From positions 1-50,215 of the forward strand of contig JAFYJW010000003.1 in NCBI GenBank assembly GCA_017537925.1: 50,215 nt of DNA, in the 5' to 3' direction. A model generated the notes under the pieces. It was not told the origin of the DNA. It worked only from the letters and a program-made list of their open reading frames with translations, and did not search any database. The DNA is from Synergistes sp. Its GTDB lineage: Bacteria > Synergistota > Synergistia > Synergistales > Synergistaceae. Numbering within the stretch: the first letter of the stretch is position 1; each line of letters opens with the position of its first letter. Of this stretch, positions 5,781 to 41,378 are shown piece by piece. Made by a program: the position numbers and the translations under genes.

Positions 5781-6803
5781 TCACAGCCAGCGGACAGATG
5801 AATAAGGGAAGATAAAAAAAACTTCGCGCTGCGGGTAAAGCTCCCTGCAAAGAGGGTCGCCCTCCGGCACGCGCGCTTTGAGGAATGAACCGCCGACGTC
5901 GGCGGTGACAAGAACGGAATTGCGTCCGCGTTCGAGCGTCAGGTGCACTACGTGCCCCGCCGCGATATTGACGCTGCCGGTCTGCTGAGGTCTTGACAGC
6001 GCGACGCGCACGTCAGACGGGTCAAGCGCGGCGGCGCGTCCTGCATCTGCTTCTGTGCGCTCGGCATAAACGGTCTGTCCGCCTGGGAAGCTGCGTATCA
6101 TATGACCGCCTTCAGGCTTCCATCCACCCTGAAGTATGTTTTCCGCGCCCGCGGTCACCCGTCCGCGGTAGAGACCGATGATCTCGGCCGACATCTCATA
6201 AAGCCACGGCATATCATGCGTTGCCACTATAACCGCAGTGCCGTGTTCCTCAGCCTCGGTAACTGCCGCCGCCATTATCAGCTGAGCGCTGGCCTCGTCC
6301 ACGTTGGCCGTCGGCTCATCCAGCAGCAGCACGCGGGGGCGCAGCGCAAGCCGCGCTGCCAGAGCGGCGCGCTGCACCTCTCCTCCCGAGAGCTGATACC
6401 ACTGGCGCGAGGCAAATTCGGCGGGATCAAGCCCAACCCGCGCCAGACTTTCGCAGACCCTGTCTTTTACCTCCGAAGGCTCTGTACGGCGCAGCTTCAG
6501 GCCGAAGGCTACGTTCTCATACACAGAACGGCTGAGCAGAAATGAATTCTGAAGCAGATATGTCACTTCACGGCGTATCGCGCTTTCCCGTCCGGCAGTC
6601 GGCTCTCCGCGGTAGAGAAGCGTGCCGCTGTCATAAGGCATAAGGAAAGAGAGCACCTTCAGCAGCGTTGATTTTCCGCTTCCGTTGGGCCCTACGAGTC
6701 CGGTTATGCCATCGGATCTTATCGAGAGCTCCGAGATGTCGAGAGTCAGAGTCTCTTTCCGGTAGCTTTGTTTCAGGTCATGCAGCTCATAAAGCGGCGT
6801 CAT
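5781..6803 (-). CDS. tupC: Tungstate/molybdate ABC transporter ATP-binding protein
   Basis: A 340-residue ABC ATPase that should power uptake of tungstate (or molybdate) through TupB. Walker A is GPNGSGKST (about 38-46), the Q-loop is LLQN, the signature is LSGGEVQR (about 138), Walker B is VLLLDEP and the switch His is in ATHD. The nucleotide-binding domain ends near residue 230. A C-terminal extension of about 100 residues resembles the TOBE/MOP-type regulatory domains of molybdate importers. Its ATG overlaps the stop of the small ORF 6800-6994 by four bases. It is the last gene of the tup operon, and a small hairpin near 5752-5767 may end the transcript. Confidence 0.88.
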   Translation of the reverse strand: MTPLYELHDLKQSYRKETLTLDISELSIRSDGITGLVGPNGSGKSTLLKVLSFLMPYDSGTLLYRGEPTAGRESAIRREVTYLLQNSFLLSRSVYENVAFGLKLRRTEPSEVKDRVCESLARVGLDPAEFASRQWYQLSGGEVQRAALAARLALRPRVLLLDEPTANVDEASAQLIMAAAVTEAEEHGTAVIVATHDMPWLYEMSAEIIGLYRGRVTAGAENILQGGWKPEGGHMIRSFPGGQTVYAERTEADAGRAAALDPSDVRVALSRPQQTGSVNIAAGHVVHLTLERGRNSVLVTADVGGSFLKARVPEGDPLCRELYPQREVFFIFPYSSVRWL

Positions 6804-7033: not shown

Positions 7034-7882
7034 CTATTTGCCGTGCTTTTTATTCCATTCGTCGGAGTTCGGGAAAAAGAGCGGCTCCCCGTACTCGCTG
7101 ACCTTGAAGTCCTTTATTATCGTCTGGGCTTCGTCGCCGCAGAGCCAGTCTACAAATTTTACTACGTCGGCGTTGTTCACCTTCGGGAATCTCTTCGGGC
7201 TGACCTCTATCGCGGCGATAAGATTGAGAAGTATCGGATCGCCCTCTACGAGCGGGACTATTTTCAAGCCGCTTTTCTTGGTAAGGTAGGTGGCCCTGTC
7301 CATCAGAGTATAGGCGCCGCGCTTATCGGCAAAGAGCGTCGTGGGGCCGTTGCCCAGCTTGCCGAGAGAGAATACCGTGTACCACTCATCCTTCTCTCCG
7401 TCGGGCGAAATGCCTGCGGCAGTCCATACCTTCATCTCCGCCACATGAGTGCCTGACATGTCTCCGCGGCTTATAAACGGAACTTTCGCTTCAGCTATCT
7501 TTTTAAAGGCGTCGGTCGCCGATTTCATCCCCTTGATTCCAGCAGGGTCATTTTCCGGGCCGAGAATCACAAAGTCGTTGTACATAAAATCCCTGCGGTT
7601 CTGCCCGAAGCCGTCAGCTATAAACTGGTCTTCGAGAGCACGGGCGTGAACCACGACGAGATCGAAATTACCTGTTTTTGCTTTCTCCAGCGTTGCGCCG
7701 GTGCCGGCCTTTTCAATGACGAATTCAGTTCCCGTCTTGGCTTTGTAGGTGTCGGCAAGAAGCGGGATAATGCCTGCGTCGACCGGGCCGATCGTACTCG
7801 AGAGCCTGATCGTGCCGGCAAAGGCAGGCGCGCAGATAAGGAGAAAGAGAACAACCGCTGTAAATCTCTTTATATTTTTCAT
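7034..7882 (-). CDS. Second tungstate-type substrate-binding protein (TupA paralogue)
   Basis: This 282-residue periplasmic binding protein has a signal peptide (MKNIKRF, a hydrophobic core, then APAFAG). It aligns along its length with the TupA at 8686-9537: both have an MYNDFV[IL][LI]GP segment, S-R-x-D-x-SGTH, and a C-terminal LFFP. The N-terminal oxyanion loop differs. Canonical TupA has TTTST, whereas this protein has LSSTIGP, so ligand specificity may have changed. It lies between tupB and tupC, which implies that two binding proteins share one permease and ATPase. It begins 22 bases after tupB. Confidence 0.85.
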   Translation of the reverse strand: MKNIKRFTAVVLFLLICAPAFAGTIRLSSTIGPVDAGIIPLLADTYKAKTGTEFVIEKAGTGATLEKAKTGNFDLVVVHARALEDQFIADGFGQNRRDFMYNDFVILGPENDPAGIKGMKSATDAFKKIAEAKVPFISRGDMSGTHVAEMKVWTAAGISPDGEKDEWYTVFSLGKLGNGPTTLFADKRGAYTLMDRATYLTKKSGLKIVPLVEGDPILLNLIAAIEVSPKRFPKVNNADVVKFVDWLCGDEAQTIIKDFKVSEYGEPLFFPNSDEWNKKHGK

Positions 7883-7904: not shown

Positions 7905-8600
7905 TTAATTTTGTGTCCTGCGGCGCAGGAAAGACAATGATATGTTTAGCAGAAGCGATATAAGTATAAGGATCACGCCGAGCGCGATCCCCAGCGCAAA
8001 ATCTCCTTTGCCCGTTTCAAGCGTTATCGCGGTGGTTATCGTCCGCGTATGCCATTTGATATTGCCGCCCAGCATCATCGCGGAGCCCACTTCGCCCACG
8101 ATACGGCCCAGAGCCGTTAGGGCTGCGGTAAGAATCATAAAACGGGCTTCCCACAGACTCACAGCGGCAAGCTTCGCTCCCGACGCGCCGAGCGTGAGAA
8201 GCGTCTGGCGCAGGCGGCTGTCAAGACCTTCCACGGCCGAAGCAGTGTATGCGGCCACGATCGGGGTGCCCAGTATCACCTGGCCTATAGCCATCCCTTC
8301 GACAGTGAAAAGCAGCTCCCAGTCCCCTAACAGACCGCGGCGCGAGATGAACGCATATACCAAAAGGCCTATCACGACGGTAGGCAGGGCAAGAAGCGTA
8401 TCTGTCACAGTGCAGAGCGCGCGTTTGCCGGGGAAAGTGAAATATCCGAGAGCAAACCCCATCGGGAGCCCGAGCGCCAGAATCAGCGCCATAGAAAGAG
8501 CTGTCAGGCGCAGCGTTGTGACAAGAATCACCATCGTCTCTTCGTCTGCCGTAAAGAGAAGGTGAAATGCCTGAACGAATCCGTTCGCAATAAAGTCCAT
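7905..8600 (-). CDS. tupB: Tungstate/molybdate ABC transporter permease
   Basis: A 231-residue inner-membrane permease with about five to six hydrophobic helices. The ABC-coupling EAA-type loop is visible as E-x3-x-A-x3-G-A-S (SRLRQTLLTLGASGAKL region, with GRIVGEVGSAMMLGGNI after it). That GRIVGEVG segment is typical of TupB/WtpB permeases. It is flanked by the two binding-protein genes and separated from the upstream tupA by an 85-base gap holding a partial terminator. That arrangement would let tupA be made in excess over the permease. Confidence 0.9.
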   Translation of the reverse strand: MDFIANGFVQAFHLLFTADEETMVILVTTLRLTALSMALILALGLPMGFALGYFTFPGKRALCTVTDTLLALPTVVIGLLVYAFISRRGLLGDWELLFTVEGMAIGQVILGTPIVAAYTASAVEGLDSRLRQTLLTLGASGAKLAAVSLWEARFMILTAALTALGRIVGEVGSAMMLGGNIKWHTRTITTAITLETGKGDFALGIALGVILILISLLLNISLSFLRRRTQN

Positions 8601-8685: not shown

Positions 8686-9537
8686 TTAATGCCCGTAGCG
8701 CTTTTCGGCTTCCGGGAAGAAGAGCTGTTTGCCTTCGACCTTGAAGTTCGCAATATCTTCCTGGACCTTCGAAGAAGTTATCCAGTCTATGTATTTGAGC
8801 GCGAGGTCGTATTTCACGTTGGGATGCTTGAGCGGACTTACAGCCATTACGCTGTACTTGTTAAGGAGTTCGTTGTCTCCTTCACAGATTATTACAAGAC
8901 CTTTTCTGCCGTTCAGGCCGGCGTCATACTTTATGAATGTGCCGCGGTCGGTGAGGGCATAGCCGTTCTGCTCGTCTGCGATATTTATCGTTTTAAGCAT
9001 TCCCTGCCCTGTCTGAACATACCACGGGGCTTTATCGAAGTCCTTGACTCCCGCTTTCTCGAGCAACTTAAGCTCTGCCGTATGCGTGCCGGATTTATCG
9101 GCGCGGCTCACGAGTTTTTCACCCTTAGCGGCTATAGTTGCAAAGGCCTGCACTACGGGCTTGCCTTTTACTCCGGCCGGATCGCTCGCAGGTCCTATAA
9201 GGACAAAGTCGTTGTACATGACCTTGCGGCGGTTGGCGCCGGCTCCCTCTTCCATGAACTTGTCTTCCTGAGACGGCGAATGCGTCAGGACGACGTCGAC
9301 GTCGCCGTTGCGCCCGTATTCAAGCGCCTTTCCGGTACCTACAGATACCCACTGGATCTCTATGCCGGTATCCTTCAAAAGGATAGGCGCAAGATAATCA
9401 AGCAGGCCGGTGTTGTCAGTGCTCGTAGTTGTGGCCATACGGAGCACGGGAGCTTTTGCCGCAGCAAGCGAACCGAAGGCAAGCAGGCAGACGGCAAGAA
9501 GCACAGCAATAACGGAAAACTTTTTGCTGAAACGCAT
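8686..9537 (-). CDS. tupA: Tungstate ABC transporter substrate-binding protein
   Basis: TupA captures tungstate in the periplasm for TupB/TupC. The 283 residues begin with a signal peptide ending near SLAAAKA. The mature protein starts with RMATTTSTDNTGLLDYL, the oxyanion-binding loop diagnostic of the TupA/WtpA-like family. Further family blocks are MYNDFVLIGPASDPAG and SRADKSGTHTAELKLL. GAGGAGGGG lies before the ATG. It is the first gene of the operon and has a structured leader of about 240 bases and a promoter at 9788-9816. Tungstate rather than molybdate is the family expectation and is not proven here. Confidence 0.92.
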   Translation of the reverse strand: MRFSKKFSVIAVLLAVCLLAFGSLAAAKAPVLRMATTTSTDNTGLLDYLAPILLKDTGIEIQWVSVGTGKALEYGRNGDVDVVLTHSPSQEDKFMEEGAGANRRKVMYNDFVLIGPASDPAGVKGKPVVQAFATIAAKGEKLVSRADKSGTHTAELKLLEKAGVKDFDKAPWYVQTGQGMLKTINIADEQNGYALTDRGTFIKYDAGLNGRKGLVIICEGDNELLNKYSVMAVSPLKHPNVKYDLALKYIDWITSSKVQEDIANFKVEGKQLFFPEAEKRYGH

Positions 9538-9633
9538 GGGTAAAGACCCCTCCTCGTATGATTGCGCTGCAAAAGCGCAGTGAATAAATTGCAGCCCGCG
9601 GAATGAATAAAGAGAGGAAAACCAGGCATTTTC

Positions 9634-9716
9634 CCGTTCCCTTTTCCAAACGCGGGAGACGGTCCGGTTTCCCGGAACCGCCCTAACGACCGCTCCCCAT
9701 AGCTGTATGCCTTAGG
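9634..9716 (-). ncRNA. Structured leader RNA of tupA, candidate Moco/tungsten-cofactor riboswitch (copy 1)
   Basis: The tupA leader (about 9781 down to 9541) folds into several hairpins. One is TCCGG-GAAA-CCGGA with a GNRA tetraloop. It shares an ordered series of blocks with 9972-10056: CCTAA, CTATGG, AGGG, GGGAAAC, CTCCC and GAACGG. Its position before a tungstate transporter fits the Moco RNA class known upstream of molybdenum and tungsten genes. I cannot run a covariance search, so the class is inference. Nearby arms GCACAG/CTGTGC and GCAGTAT/ATACTGC lie between the promoter and this core. Confidence 0.45.
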
Positions 9717-9787
9717 GAATGCGGTTTCAGGGACGCATGCAGTATGCAGACATACTGCGGCACAGCCAGGCAAACTGTGCTTGCCAT

Positions 9788-9816
9788 ATTGTACACTACG
9801 CCGCGGTCTCCTTCAA
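9788..9816 (-). promoter_or_regulatory. Predicted tupA promoter
   Basis: On the minus strand, TTGAAG (9816-9811), a 17-base spacer and TACAAT (9793-9788). Transcription would start near 9781 and give a 5' leader of about 240 bases. Confidence 0.6.
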
Positions 9817-9845
9817 TATAAATACTCATTCAATATTAAAACGAG

Positions 9846-9884
9846 AAAAGAAAAGGGCGGGAAGTGTTGGGGGCACATCCCGCC
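9846..9884 (-). terminator. Rho-independent terminator upstream of the tupA promoter
   Basis: On the minus strand, the stem GGCGGGA/TCCCGCC (with an inner GTG/CAC) is followed by CTTTTCTTTT. No coding region precedes it on this strand, so it most likely ends a transcript carrying the upstream structured element. Confidence 0.65.
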
Positions 9885-9917
9885 GCAGTGGAGAGTTGAA
9901 ATGATTCTGAGCCTTTG

Positions 9918-9943
9918 CAAAATAAAGAGGCCGAAGCCCCTTT
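9918..9943 (-). terminator. Terminator following structured element copy 2
   Basis: On the minus strand, the 8-bp stem AAAGGGGC/GCCTCTTT (one G-U pair) closes a stable TTCG tetraloop and is followed by ATTTT. It lies about 30 bases after copy 2 of the leader element, as expected for a riboswitch-type attenuator. Confidence 0.6.
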
Positions 9944-9971
9944 TGCAGAGCACGGCCCAATAAATTTTCAC

Positions 9972-10056
9972 GCCGTTCTCCTTTCCGAAAGGGAGGCCGC
10001 CGCGTTTCCCCGGCGACCCTGTCGGCGGAAGGACCATAGTTTAAAAACCTTTAGGT
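9972..10056 (-). ncRNA. Structured RNA element, copy 2
   Basis: Read on the minus strand, this contains CCTAAAGG, CTATGG, CCGCCG, GGGGAAACG, CGGCGG, CTCCC and GGAGAACGGC in order. These match blocks of the tupA leader (copy 1). The CCGCCG/CGGCGG and CTCC/GGAG arms form two stems. Its own predicted promoter (10075-10102) and terminator (9918-9943) would define an RNA of about 150 bases. No gene lies between that terminator and the tupA promoter. Confidence 0.45.
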
Positions 10057-10074
10057 CCAGCCGCTCGGAGAATC

Positions 10075-10102
10075 ATTATCATATATTGCCGTTATCCTAC
10101 AA
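10075..10102 (-). promoter_or_regulatory. Predicted promoter for structured element copy 2
   Basis: On the minus strand, TTGTAG (10102-10097), a 16-base spacer and GATAAT (10080-10075). Confidence 0.4.
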
Positions 10103-10140
10103 TAAAATAAAAAAAATGACAAGCACCAAAGACCGCGCTC

Positions 10141-10187
10141 AAATTATCTGAATTATCTTGAATTATCACTAAATTGTCTGAATTGTC
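10141..10187. repeat. Five phased AATTRTC repeats
   Basis: AATTATC occurs at 10142, 10151 and 10161, and AATTGTC at 10172 and 10181. The spacing of 9 to 11 bases is about one helical turn, so all copies face the same side of the DNA. It may be a multi-site protein-binding or bending element. No gene covers it. Confidence 0.6.
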
Positions 10188-10317
10188 CGTGAAACAAGGC
10201 TGAACATGCCAGATGGGGCGTCCCCCGCAGAAGCAGAGAGTTGTTGTGTCTAAAACATCCTGATAAATAAACGGACCGCACCCATTTGCACCGAGAATTG
10301 CCTGCGATAAGCCGGGC

Positions 10318-10388
10318 GGCCGTTCTCCTTCCCTGGCGGGGACACCGCGCTTCCCTCTGCGAACATGCCGGCAGAAAAGCTGCAGGCC
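10318..10388 (-). ncRNA. Structured RNA element, copy 3 (degenerate)
   Basis: Both copies read GCCGTTCTCCTT identically on the plus strand (here from about 10318, in copy 2 from about 9972). They keep CCGCG, TTCCC, GCGA and a GGC-GAA block in the same order. A weaker match continues on the minus strand to a TGCAAA-GGG-TTTATTT segment that parallels copy 2's terminator. It is more diverged than the other two and may be decayed. Confidence 0.35.
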
Positions 10389-10390
10389 AC

Positions 10391-10425
10391 ACGCTCCGGC
10401 CTATGCAGCCCGGAGCGTCGTTTTT
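10391..10425 (+). terminator. Strong plus-strand terminator
   Basis: A perfect 9-bp stem ACGCTCCGG/CCGGAGCGT (10391-10399 and 10410-10418) is followed by CG and TTTTT. A possible plus-strand promoter TTGTTG-17-TAAATA at 10241-10269 lies upstream, so a short RNA of about 150 bases could end here. Nothing coding precedes it on this strand. Confidence 0.7.
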
Positions 10426-10430
10426 ATACA

Positions 10431-10449
10431 GTACCGTTTGTGGTACAAT
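10431..10449 (+). promoter_or_regulatory. Promoter -10 with overlapping inverted repeat before the metallophosphoesterase gene
   Basis: TACAAT at 10444-10449 is a plausible -10. It overlaps GTACC-gtttgt-GGTAC (10431-10446), a perfect 5-base inverted repeat that could be a repressor site. The -35 is poor. Confidence 0.35.
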
Positions 10450-10516
10450 AAACGCTGAAATAAAATGAGCGTTAACGGCTCTTTACAGAATTTTATGCCG
10501 AAATGAGGGCAGCGGC

Positions 10517-11194
10517 ATGACGACACTGCGTATCCCGCCCAATCTTCCTAAAGCGACGCTTGAAGAGATGAGGGCATGTCCAATCATAAAACAGTTCGAC
10601 GACCTGGGGATCTGGTTCGGCGTCAATCCGCCGTGCATCGACGCGCGCGAGATGGTCCTCCACATCTCCGACACGCCTCAGACTATGTACAATTATCTGC
10701 GCAGAGTCCTGCGCAGACTAAAGCCGGCGTGGATAGTCCACACCGGGGATTTCGTCGACAATGTGAAGCTGGAAAGACGTCCCGGAATGATCGACCTCTA
10801 CCGCAAAATAATCAAAGAATTTTTTGCGATTCTTGATGAAGAGAACTACGGCGCGATCGTCGTCACCGGAAATCATGACGACGTCCCCACTCTCCTTTCG
10901 TACAGGCACAACCCCTCGGTACAGATCTGGACCACCCCGGGCTCCTTCTCGCTGGGAAATTTTACCTTCCGCGCGGGACACACCTATGAGGACGTCATGA
11001 CGGAACCCGCGCAGTATAACCTCTACGGGCACAACATGGTGCACCCCTCGGGCACGGACGCCAAAGGCAATATGTACCTGAACGGACTGCAGGCAATGTA
11101 CCTTATTCACATATACAGCGGCGAAGTGACTTCTATACCATATCCGTGGGGTACGAACGACGCGCGGCTCGAGCGCAGGCGGGTCTCGCTTTAG
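10517..11194 (+). CDS. Calcineurin-like metallophosphoesterase
   Basis: A 225-residue single-domain protein with the phosphoesterase motif series: ISDT (about 50-53), HTGDFVDN (75-82), VTGNHDD (116-122), GHTYE (154-158) and YGHN (170-173). These bind a dinuclear metal centre. The usual first motif is Asp-x-His. Here Asp52 is followed by Thr-Pro, so the canonical His is missing and metal binding at site 1 may be altered. A GAGGG site lies 8 bases before ATG 10517. The next gene, an orphan, starts 43 bases downstream and is probably co-transcribed. It has no signal peptide, so it should be cytosolic. The substrate cannot be inferred. Confidence 0.8.
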   Translation: MTTLRIPPNLPKATLEEMRACPIIKQFDDLGIWFGVNPPCIDAREMVLHISDTPQTMYNYLRRVLRRLKPAWIVHTGDFVDNVKLERRPGMIDLYRKIIKEFFAILDEENYGAIVVTGNHDDVPTLLSYRHNPSVQIWTTPGSFSLGNFTFRAGHTYEDVMTEPAQYNLYGHNMVHPSGTDAKGNMYLNGLQAMYLIHIYSGEVTSIPYPWGTNDARLERRRVSL

Positions 11195-34988: not shown

Positions 34989-35018
34989 TTGACGAGCAGA
35001 AGAGAATTAGCGTATTAT
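34989..35018 (+). promoter_or_regulatory. Promoter for the mutA-mutB-meaB operon
   Basis: TTGACG (34989-34994), 18-base spacer, TATTAT (35013-35018). Transcription would begin near 35025, just before the cobalamin riboswitch. Confidence 0.65.
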
Positions 35019-35044
35019 TACTGCGTATAAAAAATTATATAACG

Positions 35045-35185
35045 CTGCAGAAGCTGGGAATCAGGTGCAATTCCTGAACGGCCCCGCCACTGTAAGCCGC
35101 GACGATATCGCATATGCCACTGAGTTTTTCGGGAAGGCGCGATGGAGGATGAACGGCAAGCCAGGATACCGCTCTGCGCGAAGTT
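35045..35185 (+). ncRNA. Cobalamin riboswitch upstream of methylmalonyl-CoA mutase
   Basis: Core elements occur in order: GGTGCAATTCC, CGGCCCCGCCACTGTAA (35078-35095), GCCACTG (35115-35121), GGGAAGGCGCGATGGA (35130-35146) and the B12 box AAGCCAGGATACCGC (35158-35172). A terminator follows at 35251-35278. GGGCGGGGGTTT (35202-35213) could pair with the terminator's left arm as an antiterminator. Confidence 0.92.
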
Positions 35186-35250
35186 GCAGCAATTCCTGCG
35201 CGGGCGGGGGTTTCTTGATGCGTTTAACGCAACTTTCAGCCACAGCAACT

Positions 35251-41083: not shown

Positions 41084-41112
41084 TTGACAAATAACAGAGG
41101 TAATGATATTTT
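41084..41112 (+). promoter_or_regulatory. Promoter for the BtuB-like receptor operon
   Basis: A perfect TTGACA (41084-41089), a 17-base spacer and TATTTT (41107-41112). Confidence 0.65.
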
Positions 41113-41114
41113 CT

Positions 41115-41270
41115 GGTAGAAATAGATTCCCCGCTGAGTACGGGAATCCGGTTAAAAGCCGGAACGGCCCCTGCCGCCGTGATCGGGACGAAAGCGCATG
41201 ATGCCATTGCATAAAGCGAGAAGGCGCGCTGTTAGGATGACCGAGAGTCGGAAAACCTGCTGCGGAGGAC
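41115..41270 (+). ncRNA. Cobalamin riboswitch upstream of the TonB-dependent receptor
   Basis: Conserved pieces occur in order: GGGAATCCGGT (41142-41152), AAAAGCCGGAACGGCCCCTGCCGCC, GATGCCATTGC (41199-41210), GAAGGCGCGCT and the B12 box GAGTCGGAAAACCTGC (41245-41260). There is no T-run afterwards. A GCGCGC hairpin (41280-41296) and about 110 more bases lead to the start codon, so translational control is more likely than transcription termination. Confidence 0.88.
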
Positions 41271-41378
41271 CTGGCTTAGCGCGCATGGGGCGCGCGACGT
41301 CGGACAGCCGCTGGGATGATATGCGGCAGACGGTGCAAGCCCCTTCCGCGAATACCGGAATTCACGGAGGTCATTCCA

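Follow-up and report, generated by a model that had tools for sequence, protein, structure and literature searches.

Two P3-less RF01055 aptamers upstream of tupA in Synergistaceae and a putative antisense module between them

The tup operon and its two riboswitch units

In the present study, we analysed a stretch of 50,215 nt (the window) from a Synergistes genome, here called G000, in which a tup operon lies on the minus strand. The tungstate-binding protein is encoded by tupA (8686-9537; NF041772, E 9.6e-94, 313.7 bits, below the 400-bit cut-off), whose Shine-Dalgarno sequence (GAGGAGGGG) and start codon occupy 9535-9555. The same strand carries tupB (7905-8600), a second TupA-like binding protein inside the operon (7034-7882, 157 bits to the TupA model) and a tupC-like ATPase (5781-6803), tupB and the ATPase being identified with NCBIfam and Pfam. 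The model scores of TupA, TupB and TupC were strong yet under the curated cut-offs. Two cobalamin riboswitches are found further along the window on the plus strand, at 35012-35191 and 41097-41278 (86.5 and 72.6 bits).

Up to three copies of a structured leader RNA had been proposed upstream of tupA, with a molybdenum or tungsten cofactor riboswitch as the natural candidate or else a new class. The search with RF01055 put forward in this original prediction was carried out with cmscan (gathering cut-off 36 bits) and gave two full-length matches on the minus strand upstream of tupA, at 9962-10082 (75.6 bits) and 9623-9744 (56 bits). The repeats described at 9972-10056 and 9634-9716 are real, as both fall within these matches. 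We keep their first numbering, so that in 5' to 3' order copy 2 is the upstream aptamer (aptamer 1) and copy 1 the downstream one (aptamer 2). Like the Moco RNA of Rfam (RF01055, PMC2408646), both working copies score above the cut-off and align over the full model, positions 1-135, with the full secondary structure. Since both pass RF01055, the notion of a new class found no support for the aptamers as a whole. In addition, the alignment of both copies has a gap over the P3 stem. Absence of P3 correlates with the use of tungsten cofactor, and direct binding assays have been precluded by the instability of the cofactor (Regulski et al. 2008, PMC2408646). Judged from this feature, both working copies are the tungsten-type (P3-less) variant of RF01055, and tungsten cofactor is their presumed ligand. 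The context is also that of the tungsten type, with the TupA and TupB matches in the window and AFOR domains elsewhere in the genome. Tandem Moco RNA copies were noted in S. wolfei and G. metallireducens (PMC2408646), and tandem Moco and Wco riboswitches appear in a later review (PMC9481103); because of these reports, both the riboswitch class and this kind of tandem were already known.

The upstream unit begins with a promoter-like TTGTCA-17-TAGGAT at 10122-10094, found by consensus scan, which bears out the promoter expected for copy 2; equivalent TTGTN..TGTANNAT boxes precede the upstream aptamer in the homologues listed. The aptamer has the canonical core CUCCGAGC and is followed by an intrinsic terminator, T1 (9919-9958), with a conserved GGCCG...CGGCC hairpin and a U-rich tail. 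A terminator had been anticipated here and is present, but in a different form, as the UUCG-loop hairpin first drawn (9917-9946) only overlaps the conserved one. A terminator hairpin with a U-rich tail follows the upstream aptamer in 14 of 14 homologues, its conserved form being GGCCGU...ACGGCC. As an antiterminator, the 5' arm of T1 has an alternative partner in the 3' side of the aptamer's P1 stem (9972-9986): 96% of cells were paired, slid controls gave 39-59%, and G005 shows one compensatory change. The antiterminator was likewise found in 14/14 homologues, so that a switchable terminator stands before the module downstream. This layout is that of the usual OFF switch, in which the terminator would form when ligand is bound, and its ligand dependence is read from the layout.

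The downstream unit has a promoter of its own, TTGAAG-17-TACAAT at 9788-9816 (consensus scan), with the conserved motif TAGTGTAnAAT and a -10 region that is near-invariant in the homologues listed. Each copy therefore has its own promoter, and the conserved promoter between the aptamers leaves a single shared two-aptamer transcript in doubt. Copy 1, which carries the variant core CCCUGAAAC, leads straight into tupA (start 9537), as was foreseen. A weak anti-Shine-Dalgarno candidate, UUCCUCUC, lies at 9612-9619; such pairing was clearly above shuffles in about 6 of 15 leaders, G000 not being among them. Overall, copy 1 probably controls tupA, at the level of translation.

Conservation of the doublet and the fate of the third copy

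RF01055 is present in 47 of 61 relatives and, across the phylum, in 92 of 188 genomes. The doublet directly before tupA was found in 16 Synergistaceae genomes, a count that includes the near relative G002, in which the first aptamer is cut by the contig end. The order in the homologues listed is promoter, aptamer 1, terminator, hairpin element, promoter, aptamer 2 and tupA, and aptamer 2 stands alone before tupA in G006 and G025. At the P1/P2 junction, the downstream aptamer reads [CU]UGAA in 15/15 sequences and so lacks the canonical CCGAG, which is found in 102 of the 111 other RF01055 sequences. The alteration of the core, with U at the P1 closing pair and A at the P2 entrance, is consistent in 18 genomes and sets this copy apart from described RF01055 members. 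A subtype model (R2) matched copy 1 at 9634-9734 with 84.8 bits; it scored 68-107 bits in the 18 family genomes and at most 66.9 bits elsewhere. By its core sequence, copy 1 is a distinct aptamer subtype.

Further RF01055 copies were seen outside the doublet. A third P3-less copy of this genome (G000:C12:9462-9581, minus strand; L046) lies upstream of a response-regulator gene, an association that recurs in more than 10 relatives. P3-containing (Moco-type) copies precede a gene that by eye resembles a 2Fe-2S molybdo-hydroxylase (L076, L081, L082, L094, L112 and others). They often stand 1-2 kb from the response-regulator riboswitch, and thus both aptamer types coexist in one genome. In G007, a gene starting RYFIGFDDTD, TiaS-like by eye, is placed between two RF01055 aptamers upstream of tupA (L110, L187), which may point to an origin of the doublet through loss of an intervening gene.

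The weaker third copy (10318-10388) had no Rfam match, even at E <= 10. It aligns with copy 2 better than shuffled sequence does (z 7.9; score reached by 0 of 1000 dinucleotide shuffles), and its alignment with copy 1 alone is weak (score reached by 32/1000 shuffles). The region 10201-10517 aligns over 289 nt, at 78% identity, with the stretch of the congener G001 that holds its intact upstream riboswitch, and the match takes in promoter, aptamer, terminator and linker at the counterpart position. We delimit the relic at 10201-10500 on the minus strand; decay has affected its -10 box, aptamer core and linker, including the linker hairpin (10208-10242). The homology implies a duplication of the unit within this lineage, followed by loss of function of the outer copy. 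Hence, the similarity claimed for the third copy is genuine and a third working copy is not supported, for by homology it is almost certainly a decayed remnant of the original upstream riboswitch. Readings of this copy as a working riboswitch or as another Rfam class were rejected on the same results. Its AGGGAAG...GGTG stretch looked cobalamin-like but gave no cobalamin match, so this reading was dropped, and a genomic repeat or mobile element was rejected because the region has one significant copy in the genome. Short AATTCAGA / GATAATT repeats lie between the relic and copy 2 (10135-10195, minus strand); the corresponding G001 linker is without them. A divergent metallophosphoesterase gene is preceded on the plus strand by a GC-rich inverted repeat with CGTTTTTAT behind it (10392-10428), which looks terminator-like by eye; this repeat is absent from the list of the terminator scan. 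The aptamers, the relic and their conservation are near certain. The region would then consist of two RNA switches, each with a promoter of its own, and one defunct copy.

The linker element and its complementarity to the ferredoxin-AOR mRNA

Between T1 and the second promoter lies an RNA element (9845-9898, minus strand) that we described with a covariance model, R1. It comprises an antisense core, AACUCUCCACUG (9886-9897), a hairpin (9856-9884) and a U-rich tail (9846-9856) that is a possible second terminator. The 7-nt loop of the hairpin, (C/A)CCCCAA, has its last six positions invariant (CCCCAA at 9867-9872), and the 10-bp stem varies freely: 95% of cells were paired, as compared with 40-51% in slid controls, and nine of the ten pairs showed changes on both sides. 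Model R1 gave one significant match in the genome of the window, with 50.5 bits (next best 13 bits). Scores above 41 bits were confined to the 16 genomes with the doublet, and lower-scoring copies were seen behind RF01055 aptamers in G007 and G005. The element is covered by no Rfam family in cmscan. The idea of a widespread regulator site was dropped, as there is one match per genome. Of the weak hits, those in G179 resemble poly-G/C ends of the assembly, and in G178 and G033 either the loop or the context is missing.

The complement of the loop CCCCAA was found at another locus, in the mRNA of a ferredoxin-AOR operon, AOR being a tungstoenzyme family with AFOR_N and AFOR_C domains. The leader of this mRNA starts with UUGGGG, just after the -10 box, in 14/14 antisense-bearing genomes examined, and a hairpin of changing sequence stands directly 3' of it. 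A second, longer complementarity exists between the RNA 5' of the linker hairpin and the AOR Shine-Dalgarno/start region; for the linker of the window, the duplex analysis pairs the antisense core with the Shine-Dalgarno region CAGUGGAGGG of the ferredoxin-AOR operon. The homologous segment of sister genera also spans the GUG start codon, and in six genomes the perfect complement is 11-12 nt long. Examples are CACACAAAAUC in G030 and ACACAAAAUCCC in G027 and G009. The 13-mer GGGATTTTGTGTG occurs exactly once per genome in 8 of 8 tested, always before AOR, and its reversed control 0 times. Furthermore, matched species paired better than mismatched ones (0 of 20,000 permutations reached the matched score; for three choices of a single genome per genus, 2, 2 and 8 of 40,320 did), shared ancestry not being fully corrected in either comparison. 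The species-matched pairing is clear in G021 (mRNA GCGGAGGGAUUGG, linker CCAAUCUCCGC). The computed pairing thus places the target elsewhere in the genome, being unique in 8/8 genomes, species-matched and weaker in the genus of the window.

In that genus, the pairing is shorter (CUCUCCACUG, 8 nt perfect), with a longest perfect complement of 7-8 nt. Six of 34 control start regions from the window paired as well or better in G000, and the duplex energy was reached by 99 of 500 shuffles for G001 and 11 of 500 for G000. The response-regulator start region outscored AOR in G000 and G002. Because of this weakness, the case rests on the family and not on this genome alone. As candidate targets, the tupA, response-regulator and XDH-like start regions were rejected, performing worse than AOR in most genomes; besides the response regulator in the two genomes named, the exceptions were tupA in G002 and the XDH-like gene in G009. 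A 7-nt target, GTTGGGG, was also discarded, as it fits G005 only and the shared core is 6 nt.

A second clade carries a different loop. In G177, tupA is preceded by one aptamer only, an arrangement that occurs twice in its genome, and the terminator is followed by a hairpin with the loop CCUCCCAA. A perfect complement of 9 nt, UUGGGAGGG, is present in its AOR leaders (9 nt was reached by 7 and 11 of 300 shuffles). For one copy of G177, the full-length duplex did not surpass shuffles. The two clades differ in loop and target at once, CCCCAA/UUGGGG versus CUCCCAA/UUGGGAG, so that C-G corresponds to U-A in G177. The loop CUCCCAA is shared by G171, G028 and G020, in which the loop only was compared. 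AOR, a small moaD-like gene, RF01055 and tupA stand in a row twice in G177 (L250, L251), and AOR and tungstate uptake are physically linked in this genome.

Among genomes at least 90% complete, AOR was present in 14/14 with the unit, counting the weak copies in G005 and G007, as against 6 of 17 without it (Fisher p 1.5e-4, not corrected for phylogeny). UUGGGA or UUGGGG also heads the AOR leaders of several genomes without a detected unit, which limits the argument from co-occurrence and means that UUGGGR may have another role. Both this and the invariance of CCCCAA and UUGGGG would agree with two copies of a protein-binding site, on DNA or RNA, that do not pair with each other; as both sequences are invariant, the loop/target pairing is beyond covariation testing within the main clade. 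Such a site is highly improbable in our view, as the linker stem covaries as RNA, the separate longer complementarity to the AOR mRNA covaries between genera, and loop and target change together between clades. Antisense pairing with the AOR mRNA is the likely conserved function of the linker element, as far as comparison of sequences can tell.

The known Moco/Wco tandems (PMC2408646, PMC9481103) would also permit an ordinary tandem riboswitch, in which both aptamers belong to one tupA transcript, copy 2 acting by termination and copy 1 at translation, with an incidental complementarity to AOR; a sharper response would be its meaning. This agrees with the U-rich tail after the linker hairpin, which is a convincing terminator in some species only and weak in several, so that the first transcript could run into tupA. 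We judge it unlikely, since a conserved second promoter follows the linker hairpin, hairpin and antisense segment match AOR species by species, and the upstream unit occurs away from tupA in G005. There, the detached aptamer-terminator-hairpin unit lies beside the ferredoxin-AOR operon in divergent orientation and has UUUUUUU after its hairpin; tupA of G005 is on another contig, and the aptamer is absent from the 148 nt of sequence upstream of it. The conserved antisense module against a tungstoenzyme mRNA between the copies indicates that copy 2 is probably more than a second tupA leader.

The uneven U-rich tails also make a free-standing small RNA uncertain. As a variant of antisense control, the module might act in trans while forming the 5' portion of a long tupA mRNA, the second promoter then giving a basal tupA transcript. 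The arrangement of G177, with aptamer, hairpin and tupA and no second aptamer between, speaks for this, as do the weak tails; the unit of G005, with a strong U-tract and no tupA behind it, speaks against it. We regard this variant as possible but doubtful. The antisense RNA would accordingly end at the hairpin or extend into tupA.

A predicted tungsten-sparing circuit

The best explanation, to which we give a probability of about 0.72, is that copy 2 governs a trans-acting antisense RNA by which AOR is repressed under shortage of tungsten cofactor, and that copy 1 controls tungstate uptake. It is based on the family, architecture, conservation, covariation, complementarity and species matching described above. 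The upstream unit would run from its promoter through a P3-less cofactor aptamer, T1 and the antisense segment to the CCCCAA hairpin, and we take it to be transcribed in this order. With tungsten cofactor bound, T1 would form and the upstream RNA would stop short; with the cofactor scarce, T1 would be bypassed and the RNA would run on into the antisense module. The module would then base-pair with two sites of the ferredoxin-AOR mRNA, the UUGGGG at its very 5' end and the Shine-Dalgarno/start region, and so block the synthesis of the tungsten-containing aldehyde:ferredoxin oxidoreductase. In the downstream unit, the second promoter and the variant aptamer would control tupA, probably at translation, and the same shortage would let aptamer 2 release tupA and tungstate uptake rise. 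Taken together, the two units would let the cell both spare and scavenge tungsten by means of RNA, in a metal-sparing circuit that may have no component other than RNA. RNA-based tungsten sparing is comparable to iron sparing by RyhB.

Repression, the ligand and a separate small RNA are plausible parts of this reading. With one pairing site at the very first nucleotides of the mRNA, the RNA could conversely activate or stabilise the AOR mRNA by covering its 5' end; this is very unlikely, as the longest pairing covers the Shine-Dalgarno sequence and the GUG start codon (g8, G011 and G030), which normally blocks initiation. A more elaborate form of the all-RNA circuit, which we hold to be rather unlikely, would give the neighbouring variant riboswitch a different ligand preference, for instance Moco versus tungsten cofactor, so that the pair would compare both metals. 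The natural doublet with two Moco/W aptamer subtypes makes this discrimination testable by swapping.

Several described systems share parts of this arrangement. Both copies resemble the tungsten-type RF01055 members in the absence of P3 and the tungstate-transport context; unlike them, the upstream copy drives a predicted non-coding antisense module. In the accessible part of the review of tandem Wco riboswitches (PMC9481103), two aptamers of the same class stand in a row, as here, and each has an expression platform, as both copies would have here; there, they lie upstream of genes unrelated to W-cofactor biosynthesis and no promoter is described between the copies, whereas here the gene is tupA and both a promoter and an antisense module lie between. 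EutX/Rli55, a small RNA controlled by an AdoCbl riboswitch (PMC5821096), likewise has an aptamer, a ligand-dependent terminator and a trans effector made without ligand, but belongs to another ligand and another phylum and sequesters the protein EutV, where base-pairing with an mRNA start region is predicted here. The SAM riboswitches SreA and SreB of Listeria act in trans on prfA, with riboswitch RNA pairing with the 5' UTR of another mRNA (PMC4691137); the effector of SreA is the terminated aptamer in the presence of ligand, and here it would be the read-through part in its absence. Antisense-acting riboswitches, among them Moco examples (PMC9943018), also provide riboswitch-controlled antisense regulation, but as cis-antisense at the 3' end of the target, while the target here is at another locus. 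A circuit of AOR, small RNA, riboswitch and tungsten had no description in the listed titles and abstracts of open-licence papers.

The subtype of copy 1, a promoter for each copy and the conserved antisense module between them were absent from the original prediction, and it is this module that is new, not the class or the tandem. The trans-acting riboswitch RNAs described in the papers considered here are of one protein-binding type and one terminated-aptamer type (PMC5821096, PMC4691137). If the present reading is true, a conserved read-through antisense module targeting the start region of an enzyme mRNA would be a third mode, and in these bacteria it would be the tungsten counterpart of iron sparing.
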